Source of the DNA: a virus
Length of the DNA: 31,229 nucleotides
Virus record (IMG/VR): IMGVR_UViG_3300025168_000383
Span: 1 to 31,229 of that record
Direction: 5' to 3' (one strand)
Made by a program: the position numbers and the translations under genes. Below the pieces are notes generated by a model. That model saw only the letters and a program-made list of their open reading frames with translations. It did not search any database and had not been told where the DNA came from. This document shows positions 8,532 to 23,472 of the stretch, in pieces (within the stretch, counting starts at the first letter, position 1; every line of letters starts with the position of its first letter).

Positions 8532-9772
8532 CGCGCCATACCTATATCTGTTACCACGACAGGTCTACCCAGTGACCATTTGCGGTGTAAGAAGTAACCT
8601 ACAGCATCGACCCAGTCATCTATTGCAGGATGTTCGCTAAACTTTTCCGGTGCACCTTTCACGTAACCTTGCGACTCTATCGCATCAGTTAAGTTTGGGC
8701 ATTTGTCTGTATTTATCAATAGCCGATCGTGGCTCAATAAGCCATTTACCGCATTAACTCTATCTCGTATGAGCGGATTGGCATTTGGACAATCCACAGC
8801 ATAACCATTAGATCGTATTATATCAATATCTGAACCAGTTGCGTTAGTCGTTCCACTTTTGCCCGATGCGTCAGGGTAGCAAGTAATTTTTCGCCCTTTT
8901 TGCTCATACTTACTAAGTCGTAGGCAAAAATCCCTCGTATCTACGCAAACAAATTCATCAACGACGATCGGGTTATTGTTCTCAATCAAGCAAATAAGCA
9001 CACAACATCCACCAATGTTAAAGTCTATGCCAACGTGTACCATCTGATCTTGATCAGTTAACTCTCTGTTTGTGTGATGCTTTTCTCGTTTAAAAAAATG
9101 ATAAACCTTATTGGCCGACAGACTTACAAATTCACCTTTTAAGAATAAATCAGCAAGTACTGGATCATAGTTGTCTAATATTTGTTGTATGTAGCCTTCT
9201 GGTAAAAAAGGGTTCGAGGCAGTAGGTGATTTTATGACACTATAGCCATCTTGTAATGATTTTACCCATTTTTGATATACGAAACCGCTGTATCCCTGAT
9301 CTGGTGTAGTTACACATCCAATAGTATTACCTGCGGCGTAGGTTGTTTTTTGTCTGTTTCTTTCTGTTATTTTTCGCCAAACAAGAGCCGCTTTGTCTTT
9401 CGGTAAAGTATCAAGCTCATCAACGATACTATGCGCTACCTCATACGCAACGATTCTTTCTGGTCTATCATATGATCTAAGAATGACCATTCCGTAGCCA
9501 TGAATAGCAATCGTATACTCTGCGCGGTTGGTTTTATACCCTAGACCTAATTCTTCAAGTTCTTCTTCAAAGCCAGTTAATGCGCGTAGTCGCAACAGGT
9601 CATAAGTCGGCATATAGTAACCGCCATTCGTACTTGGGTCTGACAACATCAAACAAATTAGTCTCGATATACCTGCTTTGGTTTTACCACTACCCAATCC
9701 CCCGACGAGCGCAGGGTATTTTGATTCGCTACAAACGAATTCTTCTTGGGGTTCAGTCAGGGACAGTTGCAC
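8528..9772 (-). CDS. terL: Terminase large subunit
   Basis: 414 residues. ATPase: Walker A GGLGSGKT (24-31) and Walker B SIVDE (115-119). Nuclease half: an RNase H-like core with Asp250 in HVGIDFNIGG, Asp301 in CYPDASG, and acidic residues in AIDDWVDAVGYF near the C-terminus. It powers DNA packaging and cuts concatemers. The likely start is GTG at 9772, which overlaps the small subunit end by 20 bases. No ribosome site is obvious, so translation is probably coupled to the upstream gene. Confidence 0.95.
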   Translation of the reverse strand: MQLSLTEPQEEFVCSESKYPALVGGLGSGKTKAGISRLICLMLSDPSTNGGYYMPTYDLLRLRALTGFEEELEELGLGYKTNRAEYTIAIHGYGMVILRSYDRPERIVAYEVAHSIVDELDTLPKDKAALVWRKITERNRQKTTYAAGNTIGCVTTPDQGYSGFVYQKWVKSLQDGYSVIKSPTASNPFLPEGYIQQILDNYDPVLADLFLKGEFVSLSANKVYHFFKREKHHTNRELTDQDQMVHVGIDFNIGGCCVLICLIENNNPIVVDEFVCVDTRDFCLRLSKYEQKGRKITCYPDASGKSGTTNATGSDIDIIRSNGYAVDCPNANPLIRDRVNAVNGLLSHDRLLINTDKCPNLTDAIESQGYVKGAPEKFSEHPAIDDWVDAVGYFLHRKWSLGRPVVVTDIGMAR

Positions 9773-10127
9773 GTACGATCTGTATTACATTATCTGTGCT
9801 TGTAGATATAGTGGTGGAGTCTTGTTCTTTCCAACCTGCTTGTGTTTTTAGATAAAATATCGCCGCTGTGGTATTACCGTTTTGCGCTTGATTGACTAAA
9901 TTACCTGCCACACTCGCAATAGCTTTACCTTTGCCTTTTTTATAAGCATCAGAAACTTCGGGCTGACGCTCCTCGATGGCGCGAAAAGTTGTTTCAGAAA
10001 TGCCGTAATAATCAGCCAATTGTGCTTTTGTTAATACAGCAGCAAGTCGCTCGACCATTATAATTTGCTCTTGATCAAATGTTACTGGCGGTCTTCCTCC
10101 ACCTTCGCCTTGGTTTCCTTTTTTCAT
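9753..10127 (-). CDS. terS: Terminase small subunit-like DNA-binding protein
   Basis: 124 residues with a Gly/basic N-terminus, then a helix-turn-helix near residues 33-52 (LTKAQLADYYGISETTFRAIEE), a helical middle (KGKAIASVAGNLVNQAQNG) and the TAAIFYLKTQAGWKEQ segment typical of small terminase proteins. It recognises phage DNA and feeds it to TerL. It directly precedes terL with a 20-base overlap and begins 4 bases inside the Mom-like gene end. Confidence 0.82.
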   Translation of the reverse strand: MKKGNQGEGGGRPPVTFDQEQIIMVERLAAVLTKAQLADYYGISETTFRAIEERQPEVSDAYKKGKGKAIASVAGNLVNQAQNGNTTAAIFYLKTQAGWKEQDSTTISTSTDNVIQIVRATVPD

Positions 10128-10828
10128 TTGGAATCCTTCGAAGAAGAATGGAGCGTGATGGTAGGCGTTGCACCTCCGCTTTCTAACTGGTCGCTAGAAT
10201 TAGCCTGCTTATCACGCTTAGGGTAAGGTTTAGCTAGTTGCATTATAGTGCTTTTCATTTGCTTGTCTAATGGCATTAAATAGCAGTGTTTGCCTTTTGT
10301 TATAAAAACTTCTGCATTTGGATCTAAATGTTGTCTAACAGCATTGATATTTTGTTTTATGCCTTTCGAATGTACTGATTTTGGGTGTACTTTTTTCCCA
10401 TGAATTAAAAATGCTCCCATTGTTCCTGCATTTTTTAATCCTGAATATACCCAGTTAGTCGCTTGATATATTCCACCATGATGATTTTGATCTGCATCTG
10501 CATAGCTTACGATAAGCCGCAAACCTTCATTGCTTTGTTTTAAAAACTTAATTGCAAAAGCCATAATTTTGCTAACTGGCGTTTTATGATGAGTTAATGC
10601 AATCCGCACAAGTTCGCAACCTTCATCAGCATTCAAATTATATGGTCTAAGCATATTATTGTTAGCTCCTCGACCGAAAATGACTACACCTATAAACTTT
10701 CCATCTTCCCAAGCACCTACCTTAACAAGTTTGCCAACAGGAATTACCTTGCTGTAGTGCCAGTTTTCACATGCATACCTTGCAGCTTCATGACTTGCCC
10801 AATCTATTTTTAAACTAACCTTTGACAT
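10124..10828 (-). CDS. Mom-like DNA adenine modification acyltransferase
   Basis: 234 residues. The first ~170 match the phage Mu Mom family, GNAT-fold enzymes that convert DNA adenine to N6-carbamoylmethyladenine and block host restriction. Key segments: ENWHYSKVIPVGKLVKVGAW (21-40), IGVVIFGRGANNNM (46-59), CELVRIAL (71-78) and RLIVSYADADQNHHGGIYQA (104-123) followed by TNWVYSG. The C-terminal ~50 residues are polar and low-complexity. No DNA methyltransferase is nearby, and Mom does not need one for chemistry. It overlaps the upstream 72-codon gene by 14 bases and terS by 4, so modification and packaging genes share a transcript. Confidence 0.88.
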   Translation of the reverse strand: MSKVSLKIDWASHEAARYACENWHYSKVIPVGKLVKVGAWEDGKFIGVVIFGRGANNNMLRPYNLNADEGCELVRIALTHHKTPVSKIMAFAIKFLKQSNEGLRLIVSYADADQNHHGGIYQATNWVYSGLKNAGTMGAFLIHGKKVHPKSVHSKGIKQNINAVRQHLDPNAEVFITKGKHCYLMPLDKQMKSTIMQLAKPYPKRDKQANSSDQLESGGATPTITLHSSSKDSK

Positions 10829-11033
10829 ATTCTAATTTAGCGAATCTATCGCCCCAGAATGATTTCTCACTTTTTAACATTTCTTCCCAAGTTCTATTTT
10901 GCATATCAATCGACACCATTTTTCTTCCATCTTGGAGAACAGTGTTATACGCAGTGCAACCATTGCTCGTCGTTTTGCTTTCAAACCTATTTAGAATATT
11001 TTTATTTTTTTGCTCAAAATCTAAACTCATCAT
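10815..11033 (-). CDS. Small protein between the ParB-like and Mom-like genes, unknown
   Basis: About 72 residues from tandem ATGs at 11033/11030, preceded by AGAGGTG, and overlapping the ParB-like stop (ATGA). Sequence: SLDFEQKNKNILNRFES..., then NGCTAYNTVLQDGRKMVSIDMQNRTWEEML and a C-terminal FAKLEYVKG. I do not recognise a family. Its place inside a tightly overlapping ParB-small-Mom run suggests a role in DNA modification, perhaps as a partner of the Mom-like enzyme. That is inference. Confidence 0.7.
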   Translation of the reverse strand: MMSLDFEQKNKNILNRFESKTTSNGCTAYNTVLQDGRKMVSIDMQNRTWEEMLKSEKSFWGDRFAKLEYVKG

Positions 11034-11539
11034 ACACCTCTCATATCGAATTCTTTTCCGCAGTGTGGGCAATTAATATATTTAGGGTCTAATTGATCTA
11101 ATTTTCCTTGATCATCTTCGCTTGCAGGGTCAAAGTCTGCCGTCTGCGTCAAAGCATTTATTTCATTACTGTCGAAACCAATAACGTCTACATTGAAATT
11201 TATATCCAACAAATCTTGAAACTCTAGCTTCAACATATCAATGTTCCAATCTGCATTTAGCGCAAGTTTATTGTCTGCAATCACATAAGCTTTAACTTGT
11301 GCCTTTGTTAATCCTTTTAATTTTATTGTAGGTATTTGATCTAATGAAAGAAGTTCAGCCGCCATAACACGACCATGACCTGCGATAATGGTTTCATTTT
11401 CGTCAATTAATACAGGATTAGTGAAGCCAAATTCACTGATAGAAGCAGCAATTTGTTTTACTTGGAATTCAGAATGGGTACGAGAATTGTTGATGTAGGG
11501 TATTAATTTGTTGGTATTTATGTATTCAATTTTTAGCAC
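11030..11539 (-). CDS. ParB-like nuclease/DNA-binding domain protein with C-terminal CPHC
   Basis: About 169 residues. ParB/Srx N-domain motifs: an N-terminal KLIPYINNSRTH, VKQIAASISEFGFTNPVLID, then IIAGHGRVMAAELLSLDQIPTI (the GHGR box) and VKAYVIADNKLALNADWN. Many phage relatives carry a DNA methyltransferase after this domain. Here it is missing and the protein ends after a CPHCGKEF knuckle (Cys157/Cys160). Two GTG starts are possible (11545 and 11539). I prefer 11539 because GGGGGTGAT ends just before it. That site lies inside a strong hairpin. Confidence 0.85.
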   Translation of the reverse strand: MLKIEYINTNKLIPYINNSRTHSEFQVKQIAASISEFGFTNPVLIDENETIIAGHGRVMAAELLSLDQIPTIKLKGLTKAQVKAYVIADNKLALNADWNIDMLKLEFQDLLDINFNVDVIGFDSNEINALTQTADFDPASEDDQGKLDQLDPKYINCPHCGKEFDMRGV

Positions 11540-11540
11540 A

Positions 11541-11581
11541 ATCACCCCCAGTGATGCGTTTAGCCTCTAGCTGAGGGTGAT
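11541..11581 (-). promoter_or_regulatory. Hairpin hiding the ribosome site of the ParB-Mom cluster
   Basis: On the minus strand ATCACCCTCAG (11581-11571) pairs with CTGGGGGTGAT (11551-11541): ten Watson-Crick pairs and one G-U, with a 19-base loop. The 3' arm is the ribosome site (GGGGGTGAT), and one of the two candidate GTG starts lies in it, the other just after. No T-run follows, so it is not an ordinary terminator. It should block translation until opened by a protein, RNA or translation from upstream. Confidence 0.7.
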
Positions 11582-11599
11582 GTTACCAGTTTTTTTCTG

Positions 11600-11857
11600 T
11601 TATGCAACATTATCGATAATCGCAAGCCTTGCTCTAGATCGCCTACCGACTCTAACGGAATCAAACTCATATATAAGATTAGAATCAAGCAACTCTTTAA
11701 CTCGTGGTGTCACACTATTGATTTGCCAACCAAGTTCTTCTGCTATTTGATGCCGTGTTATTTTTTTCTTGCGCATTATGACACGCATTACAGTACGTCT
11801 AGACAAAGGCAATGTTTCTATAATTTCTTTATAAGCCATCAGTGAATTATTGTGCAT
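11600..11857 (-). CDS. Small winged-helix DNA-binding protein
   Basis: 85 residues from the ATG at 11857; AAGGAG lies 6 bases upstream, whereas the in-frame ATG at 11863 touches it. Helices LPLSRRTVMRVIMRKKKITRHQIAEELGWQINSVTPRVKELLDSNLIYEFD form a helix-turn-helix plus wing, with a basic VRVGRRSRARLAI end. This resembles MarR/IclR-like minimal winged-helix modules in phages. It may regulate phage transcription. It is the last gene before the hairpin-controlled ParB-Mom cluster. Confidence 0.75.
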   Translation of the reverse strand: MHNNSLMAYKEIIETLPLSRRTVMRVIMRKKKITRHQIAEELGWQINSVTPRVKELLDSNLIYEFDSVRVGRRSRARLAIIDNVA

Positions 11858-11867
11858 GGTCATCTCC

Positions 11868-13276: not shown

Positions 13277-13292
13277 GCCTCCCGAAGGAGGC
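13277..13292 (-). other. Intercistronic UUCG hairpin, copy 1
   Basis: Minus strand GCCTCC-TTCG-GGAGGC: a 6-bp GC stem capped by the very stable UUCG tetraloop, placed between the stop of the 112-residue gene and the next ribosome site. No T-run follows, so it is more likely an mRNA stability or processing element than a terminator. Similar hairpins lie at 13666 and 14490. Confidence 0.75.
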
Positions 13293-13665: not shown

Positions 13666-13680
13666 GCCCCCGAAGGGGGC
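13666..13680 (-). other. Intercistronic UUCG-type hairpin, copy 2
   Basis: Minus strand GCCCCCTTCGGGGGC between the stop at 13688 and the start at 13638. It forms 6 bp with a TTC loop or 4 bp with the UUCG loop. The flanks (CAACT before, CAACC after) resemble copy 3. No T-run follows. Confidence 0.7.
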
Positions 13681-14489: not shown

Positions 14490-14505
14490 GCCCCCCGAAG
14501 GGGGC
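14490..14505 (-). other. Intercistronic UUCG hairpin, copy 3
   Basis: Minus strand GCCCCC-TTCG-GGGGGC, a perfect 6-bp stem with a UUCG loop, lying 7 bases after the stop of the 57-residue gene and 23 bases before the next ATG. The flanking CAACC sequences match copy 2. Confidence 0.75.
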
Positions 14506-22974: not shown

Positions 22975-23472
22975 CTATATATTTTTGAAAATAAAATCTA
23001 ATAAATATGCCAAAATTCCTAGACCTACGGTGATCGCTATCCCTGCGAAAATTAAATCTTTCATAAATTTTTGTTTTTTTGCCGCCTCTCTTGCGACCTG
23101 TAGCCTTCGCGTTCTTTCAACCTGTCTAATTCGAAGCATTTTTGAATATAAAGCTTGACCGCCTCTTTCTCGCCAAAATAATTCTTTGACTCTTTCGTCA
23201 AGTTCTTTAGCTTTTTTTTCTGCTCTGACAACTTCAAAAGCGTATGCCTCGATGGACCCTTGGTTAAAAAGTTTATTAGCGGCAGATGGGTTTTTTGCTT
23301 TAGCGGCGGCAACATCGAGATCATTTTTGGCACTGAAAAAAGAGGATATAGGTTTCGCCATATCTTCTATGTCAAAGCCTAGACCCTCTAATTCTTTTTT
23401 TCGCTCGATGCCAGTTTTGAGTAGTTTGTAAGCGCGATCAGCGGCGGCAACGGCTAAAGAAATCTCAATCAT
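22975..23472 (-). CDS. Helical protein with C-terminal membrane segment
   Basis: 165 residues. A long charged helical region (AVAAADRAYKLLKTGIERKKELEGLG..., SAKNDLDVAAAKAKNPSAANKLFNQGSIEAYAFEVVRAEKKAKELDERVKELFW...) is followed by RTRRLQVAREAAKKQKFMKDLIFAGIAITVGLGILAYLLDFIF, basic residues before one membrane helix. Similar proteins precede holins in aquatic phages. Role unknown, perhaps a membrane-associated virion or lysis protein. Confidence 0.65.
   Translation of the reverse strand: MIEISLAVAAADRAYKLLKTGIERKKELEGLGFDIEDMAKPISSFFSAKNDLDVAAAKAKNPSAANKLFNQGSIEAYAFEVVRAEKKAKELDERVKELFWRERGGQALYSKMLRIRQVERTRRLQVAREAAKKQKFMKDLIFAGIAITVGLGILAYLLDFIFKNI

Follow-up and report, generated by a model that had tools for sequence, protein, structure and literature searches.

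Phage DNA modification protects against restriction, and it must be timed. In phage Mu, the GUG start codon of mom lies within the stem of a translation inhibition structure (TIS), and the short hairpin next to it, which bears a CC(N)2-3GAG motif, is the binding site of Com, a zinc finger with four cysteines (PMC6483171). In phage T4, the inhibitory mRNA hairpins of genes e, soc, 49 and I-TevI hide the Shine-Dalgarno sequence and/or the start codon where early synthesis of the gene product has to be prevented; in the case of gene e, the read-through mRNA is silent and the late mRNA is active (PMC3014915). Control of a DNA-modification cluster by a ParB-like protein also has a precedent, because the dnd DNA-modification operon is repressed by DndB, which is itself ParB-like (PMC12704722). 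ParB-like proteins likewise stand beside phage base-modification genes in the CmoX contigs and others, for which no leader hairpin was reported (PMC12783734).

The locus described here shares something with each of these systems. The DNA analysed, referred to below as the window, is a stretch of 31,229 nucleotides from a virus (IMG/VR record IMGVR_UViG_3300025168_000383, positions 1 to 31,229). On its minus strand, immediately 5' of a ParB-like gene whose start GTG is at 11539, there is a stem that is predicted to bury the ribosome site of that gene. The relevant features are:

11600..11863, minus strand: winged-helix HTH gene upstream of the hairpin, with its stop 18 nt before the 5' arm (Pfam HTH_24, E 3.3e-5)
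11532..11592, minus strand: the whole conserved hairpin element (R1, a 62-position covariance model, 76.3 bits, E 4.7e-16; the window itself is among the 13 sequences of R1)
11584..11588, minus strand: 5' side of the outer helix (UGGUA), which pairs with 11538-11534 in the predicted fold
11571..11581, minus strand: 5' arm ATCACCCTCAG of the main stem (folding; alignment A4)
11552..11570, minus strand: apical part with the inner hairpin, where GAGGCTAAA (11567-11559) is invariant in all carriers (alignment; 21 of 21 first-scan matches)
11541..11551, minus strand: 3' arm CTGGGGGTGAT of the main stem, with the Shine-Dalgarno sequence GGGGGTGA (11549-11542) (folding; unpaired probability)
11534..11538, minus strand: 3' strand of the outer helix (UGCUA), in which UG of the start codon and codon 2 lie (predicted fold)
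11030..11539, minus strand: ParB-like gene (ParB_N/Srx-type), 169 aa, with a CPHCGKEF C-terminal tail (Pfam ParB_N, E 3.4e-5, narrowly short of the curated cut-off; PHROG 620, E 9.1e-59)
10815..11033, minus strand: small ORF between the ParB-like gene and mom, its ATG overlapping the ParB stop (ATGA) (sequence; a homologue in L172)
10124..10828, minus strand: Mom-family DNA modification protein, the cargo here (Pfam Mom PF25680, E 3.9e-44; PHROG 1384, E 1.3e-57)
9753..10127, minus strand: terminase small subunit, the downstream border of the cassette, its start overlapping the mom stop (PHROG 309, E 3.3e-19)

The first-pass annotation of this DNA had placed at 11,541-11,581 an 11-bp stem that buries the ribosome site of the ParB-like gene, and folding bears this out. 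The arms are ATCACCCTCAG (11581-11571) and CTGGGGGTGAT (11551-11541), and the main stem consists of 11 contiguous pairs, one of them U.G, closing an apical part of 19 nt that holds an inner hairpin around GAGGCTAAA. Read 5' to 3' on the minus strand, the leader from 11592 to 11532 is AAAC-TGGTA-AC-ATCACCCTCAG-CTAGAGGCTAAACGCATCA-CTGGGGGTGAT-TG-TGCTA-AA. The 47 nt from 11538 to 11584 fold at -20.5 kcal/mol (z -4.6), and none of 200 shuffles is equally stable; with the 3' part fixed and the 5' part shuffled, the observed energy is reached in 5 of 2000 cases. The complete 61-nt leader folds at -24.5 kcal/mol, with the addition of a weaker predicted outer helix of five pairs (UGGUA/UGCUA, 11588-11584 with 11538-11534) that covers UG of the ParB-like start codon. 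In the predicted fold, the mean unpaired probability of the Shine-Dalgarno GGGGGTGA is 0.000, and opening of the ribosome site would cost 19.1 kcal/mol, the highest value among 41 gene starts in the window (a comparison in which the position used for the small ORF start was 3 nt out); most of the others cost between 1 and 7 kcal/mol. The ribosome sites that come nearest to this value are at the starts of 22975-23472 and 1502-1900 (12.7 and 11.6 kcal/mol).

The same annotation put GTG starts in or next to the stem. A GTG does lie in the stem, but a correction is needed: the GTG at 11545 falls within the Shine-Dalgarno sequence, and the gene probably begins at the second GTG, 11539-11537 (169 aa), because four relatives (group D below) carry ATG at the same place. 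It is the outer helix that would pair part of this start codon.

The stem is real and not a chance fold, which is ruled out by the fold statistics, by the outlier status of the sequestration and by the conservation described below. A simple terminator is ruled out too, there being no U tract after the stem and no call at the hairpin in scans of the coding strand, and so is a CsrA site (judged by eye), since neither the loop nor the Shine-Dalgarno sequence has a GGA. Curated Rfam covariance models gave no match at gathering score in the window, L028, L029 or L003.

The element is carried by 27 other IMG/VR contigs, in every one at the start codon of a ParB-like gene, and it comes in four hairpin types: group A (the window, its near-identical sibling L178, and L182), group B (L161-L163, L165-L171, L173-L175, L177, L179-L181), group C (L164, L172, L176, L183) and group D (L204/L270, L205/L271, L272, L273). 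A first exact scan of IMG/VR with the 3' part only, ATCACTGGGGGTGAWTGTG, returned 21 contigs, all with the match at a ParB-like gene start, and GAGGCTAAA is in the apex of all 21 though the pattern did not require it. L182 and L183 came from a scan that combined the apex with the beginning of the 3' arm, and L272 and L273 from a looser DNA scan; L204 and L205 were first found by a protein-profile search, which made no use of the DNA. L184-L187 and L274 proved to be false matches of the DNA pattern and were discarded.

Thirteen distinct element sequences were aligned (A4), and the covariance model R1 is based on them. Each of the 15 records searched with R1 has a full-length match at the ParB-like start, in one copy; second matches away from the element are only weak (17.9 and 12.4 bits, in two records). 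This single copy per record rules out a repeated phage promoter or a second copy. An R1 search of about 195 other ParB-like/Mom loci from viral and cellular contigs found no element, nor did an exact scan of 84,980 species genomes. In a ParB-N tree the carriers form one clade (support 98/94), and L253, a long-branch row without the element, is the sole non-carrier within their branch. Unlike in the CmoX-type neighbourhoods, where no leader hairpin has been reported (PMC12783734), the ParB-like genes here have an element that defines one clade, and we regard it as a real, undescribed, clade-specific RNA element.

Covariation of the two arms in relatives had been proposed as a check of the stem. 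The arms are indeed kept together: standard pairs fill 89.4% of alignment cells, a share that drops to 36-49% once the partners are shifted by 1-3 columns. At three positions, more than one Watson-Crick type is seen (C-G/U-A, U-A/A-U and A-U/G-C). Column pair 21-47 is C-G, U.G or U-A and 13-55 is U-A or A-U, while 7-60, in the outer helix, is A-U, G-C or G.U in 7 of 13 sequences and unpaired in 6; columns 8-59 and 16-52 show Watson-Crick/wobble variation only. Of 500 shuffles, 6 attain the covariation score. The count of pairs changed on both sides (two, according to the tool) is matched by 287 of 500 shuffles, a control that was not passed. Overall, the covariation signal is real but modest, with a few compensatory changes. 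Individual folds also differ in quality: that of L172 is weak (-15.7, no better than shuffles), and L164 and L176 have a 2x2 mismatch opposite the Shine-Dalgarno sequence but an outer helix of 13 pairs. While the stem arms vary, the apical GAGGCUAAA is invariant across all four groups.

Between hairpin groups, identity is 70-83% for the element, against 20-53% at 4-fold degenerate sites of the ParB-like gene and 43-58% in the 57 nt upstream, this last being about the value for unrelated DNA in a gapped alignment. L204 and L272 have hairpins that are 98% identical with upstream DNA at 50%. L164, L172 and L183 have upstream DNA at about 90% and hairpins at 89-93%, with ParB coding DNA at 63-69% nucleotide identity. 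Identity breaks at the element edges in these two sets, so DNA is exchanged on both sides and the hairpin is retained.

What lies behind the hairpin is variable. The hairpin sits between left-going small genes and terS-terL-portal-MuF, and the packaging and head gene backbone is common to all large carriers; carriers reaching them also share single-strand-binding and YqaJ-like genes (names read from the sequence) and other early genes. Homologues of the terminase small subunit stand behind the cassette in those relatives whose contig extends that far. The slot between hairpin and terS (window 11539-10127; L161-L183, L270-L273) is a cassette site for varied DNA-modification modules. Its cargo is Mom in the window and in L172; in the DNA examined, mom occurs among carriers only in the window, the near-identical sibling and L172/L003. 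It is a Tet/JBP-type oxygenase in L163, L168 and L175, with a homologue in L181 (L163 also has a TAGT-type glycosyltransferase), a TAGT-type glycosyltransferase in L171, L182 and L183, and an ABC-ATPase/GNAT protein in L165, with homologues in L169, L173 and L180. L164 and L176 carry 7-deazaguanine genes, namely QueC and GTP cyclohydrolase (Pfam matches) together with QueD-like, phosphoribosyltransferase-like and QueE-like genes (names read from the sequence). Finally, L166 has a cargo without known family, with homologues in L162, L170, L174 and L179 and also in G009/G013.

Two of the cargo proteins deserve a remark of their own. The first gene of the QueC/GTP cyclohydrolase cassette in L164 (552-1401 bases after the hairpin, 282 aa) has no Pfam match, and its place suggests a DpdA-like transglycosylase. 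The L166 protein (568-1510 bases after the hairpin, 313 aa) belongs to a family with no Pfam match, and it is possible that it represents a new DNA-modification enzyme. As to the ParB-like protein itself, about 120 N-terminal residues are constant and the tail changes with the cargo, as if the tail were a cargo-specific adaptor on a constant N-domain.

We have high confidence that the hairpin is conserved and that, in prediction, it sequesters the ribosome site. By the established initiation rules of de Smit and van Duin, so stable a structure over a Shine-Dalgarno sequence should lower initiation by orders of magnitude. In mRNA running in from upstream, the leader would fold with the Shine-Dalgarno sequence and part of the start codon paired, and initiation at the ParB-like gene would be nearly blocked. 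The first-pass annotation went further and let the stem gate the whole cluster. The buried ribosome site is indeed at the cluster head; coupled translation via gene overlaps, on which the remainder of that claim depends, is plausible. The ParB-like gene, small ORF, Mom, terS, terL and portal overlap consecutively (ATGA at 11033-11030 and 10127-10124; the mom and terL junctions overlap by 14-20 nt), and because the ParB-like, cargo and terS genes overlap by a few bases, coupled translation could spread the gating to the cassette. The hairpin would then set the expression of the whole cassette, and perhaps affect the packaging genes as well. Such a gate would belong to the phage lineage and persist as one cassette behind it gives way to another. 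In our opinion, a regulated gate for an exchangeable DNA-modification cassette is the most likely role of the hairpin, and we hold this with moderate confidence.

As to how the gate might work, we believe that the hairpin is probably, though by no means surely, a cis-acting RNA translation gate that is opened by a trans-acting factor recognising the apex. Recognition by a factor is argued from the fact that the apex is invariant while the stem arms vary; binding of the factor to GAGGCUAAA would open the gate at the right time. Translational coupling to the upstream gene is ruled out as a shared mechanism of opening by the variable distance from the upstream stop to the stem, which is about 18 nt in group A and about 28 nt in group B, the stop lying inside the outer helix in group C. 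The opener must occur in all carriers, which leaves as candidates the always co-present ParB-like N-terminal domain or a protein of the shared backbone, and our confidence in its identity is low. Should the hairpin prove to be a gate, a single regulatory leader would serve at least five modification chemistries: the lock would be the phage's own and the armour interchangeable. It is a defined RNA motif for asking how phages time base modification, and it suggests a role for the ParB-like proteins found beside many phage modification genes, which have been described as being of unknown function (PMC12783734).

One candidate opener merits separate mention. The constant ParB-like N-domain may bind the apical GAGGCUAAA of its own leader and so act as an RNA-binding switch for the cassette slot, which would be a new class of post-transcriptional regulator on the ParB/Srx fold. 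This is speculative and rather unlikely. As with DndB, a ParB-like protein is tied to the control of a DNA-modification cluster, but unlike DndB, which is described as a transcriptional repressor, the protein here is a candidate RNA binder. If the idea is true, a phage can change its DNA armour without changing the timing control.

The comparison with Mu mom drawn in the first-pass annotation is sound as an analogy of mechanism, but not as a statement of kinship. As in com/mom, a stem is predicted to bury the ribosome site and GUG start in a DNA-modification operon, the window has Mom-family cargo, and a short GAG-bearing hairpin lies within the leader. Unlike in com/mom, however, the gated gene is the ParB-like one, not mom, in the window and the carriers read, and the same hairpin also precedes cassettes without mom. 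There is no Com: its family, PF10122, has no member in any of 12 records (the window and 11 relatives, of which several are fragments). The putative recognition loop, with its GAG, is in the stem apex and not in a separate neighbouring hairpin, and the CC of the Com target is not kept, being CU in groups A and B. The best reading, by analogy, is that the hairpin works like the Mu TIS and T4 gene e, without being a member of the com/mom system.

The T4 precedent also furnishes the main rival to a factor-opened gate. As with T4 gene e, soc and I-TevI, there would be no translation from early read-through mRNA, and late mRNA starting from a promoter in or next to the 5' arm, and hence without this arm, would be translated; a trans-acting RNA-binding factor would be unnecessary. 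Such a mechanism is well documented (PMC3014915), and the hairpin predicted here hides a Shine-Dalgarno sequence and start codon as those of T4 do. The element lies between small left-going genes and packaging genes, with no intrinsic terminator seen there. Two cultured phages, Psychrobacter phage Y8A (L188 3890-3990, after a Q antiterminator) and Enterococcus phage phiEf11 (L189 1420-1490, with Mom cargo), instead carry in the same slot a terminator-like hairpin and T run before the ParB-like gene, whose ribosome site is open and unhidden. In other phages, then, gating of this slot appears to happen at transcription, which is why we take the T4 gene e logic so seriously. However, scans at the hairpin, which covered sigma-70-like and T4-like late promoters, found neither a sigma-70-like coding-strand promoter near it in groups A-D nor a T4-type TATAAATA at it. 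Conservation ends at the hairpin base, except for A/T-rich runs, with no promoter motif upstream. A phage-specific promoter within the apical part is conceivable. Unlike in the T4 hairpins, the apex is invariant and the gated unit is a DNA-modification cassette. We judge a transcript switch to be unlikely, if still a serious contender.

Selection could also act on the DNA, in which case the arms would be an inverted repeat for a regulator (for example a DndB-type autorepressor) or a recombination border of the cassette, and the RNA fold a by-product. In group D, folding is better for the antisense than for the sense strand, and the arms make up a perfect 10-bp palindrome in the DNA; the element is flanked on either side by exchange junctions; and the ParB-like DndB does repress a DNA-modification operon (PMC12704722). 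On the other hand, the arms always coincide with the Shine-Dalgarno sequence and start codon, those of L164 and L172 are poor DNA palindromes, at several changed sites pairing survives only in RNA (G.U at columns 8, 16, 20 and 21), and no second copy is found at the other cassette border. The comparison of strands is mixed overall, with the sense strand folding better in 9 of 13 sequences. Taken together, we consider a DNA-level element quite doubtful.

It may further be asked whether any switch is needed. The hairpin could simply set a low basal translation of the ParB-like gene; sequestration alone would suffice for this, and no opener is known. But constitutive attenuation would not need an apical GAGGCUAAA that is invariant across groups with varying arms, and this makes it improbable in our view.

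The first-pass annotation had also speculated that the CPHC knuckle of the ParB-like protein could feed back on the stem. A CPHCGKEFDMR-type tail (CxxC) is present in 67 proteins, of which 65 are mom-linked ParB-like proteins without the hairpin and 2 are hairpin proteins with mom, and none of 20 hairpin-bearing ParB-like proteins without mom in the DNA examined has a CxxC in the last 40 residues; the tail tracks the Mom cargo, not the hairpin. Thus, despite the CPHC motif and despite the Mu Com target being likewise a GAG-containing hairpin beside a stem with a GUG start (PMC6483171), Mu-type control by this knuckle is hardly credible. It is rejected by association, knuckle and hairpin being separable in both directions; the Com family is absent, and Com has a finger with four cysteines where this knuckle has a single CxxC.

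Elsewhere in the window, at 13277-13292, 13666-13680 and 14490-14505, there are three intergenic hairpins with CUUCGG-type tetraloops on the minus coding strand. They have no T run and lie just upstream of gene starts; perhaps they are mRNA stabilisers.
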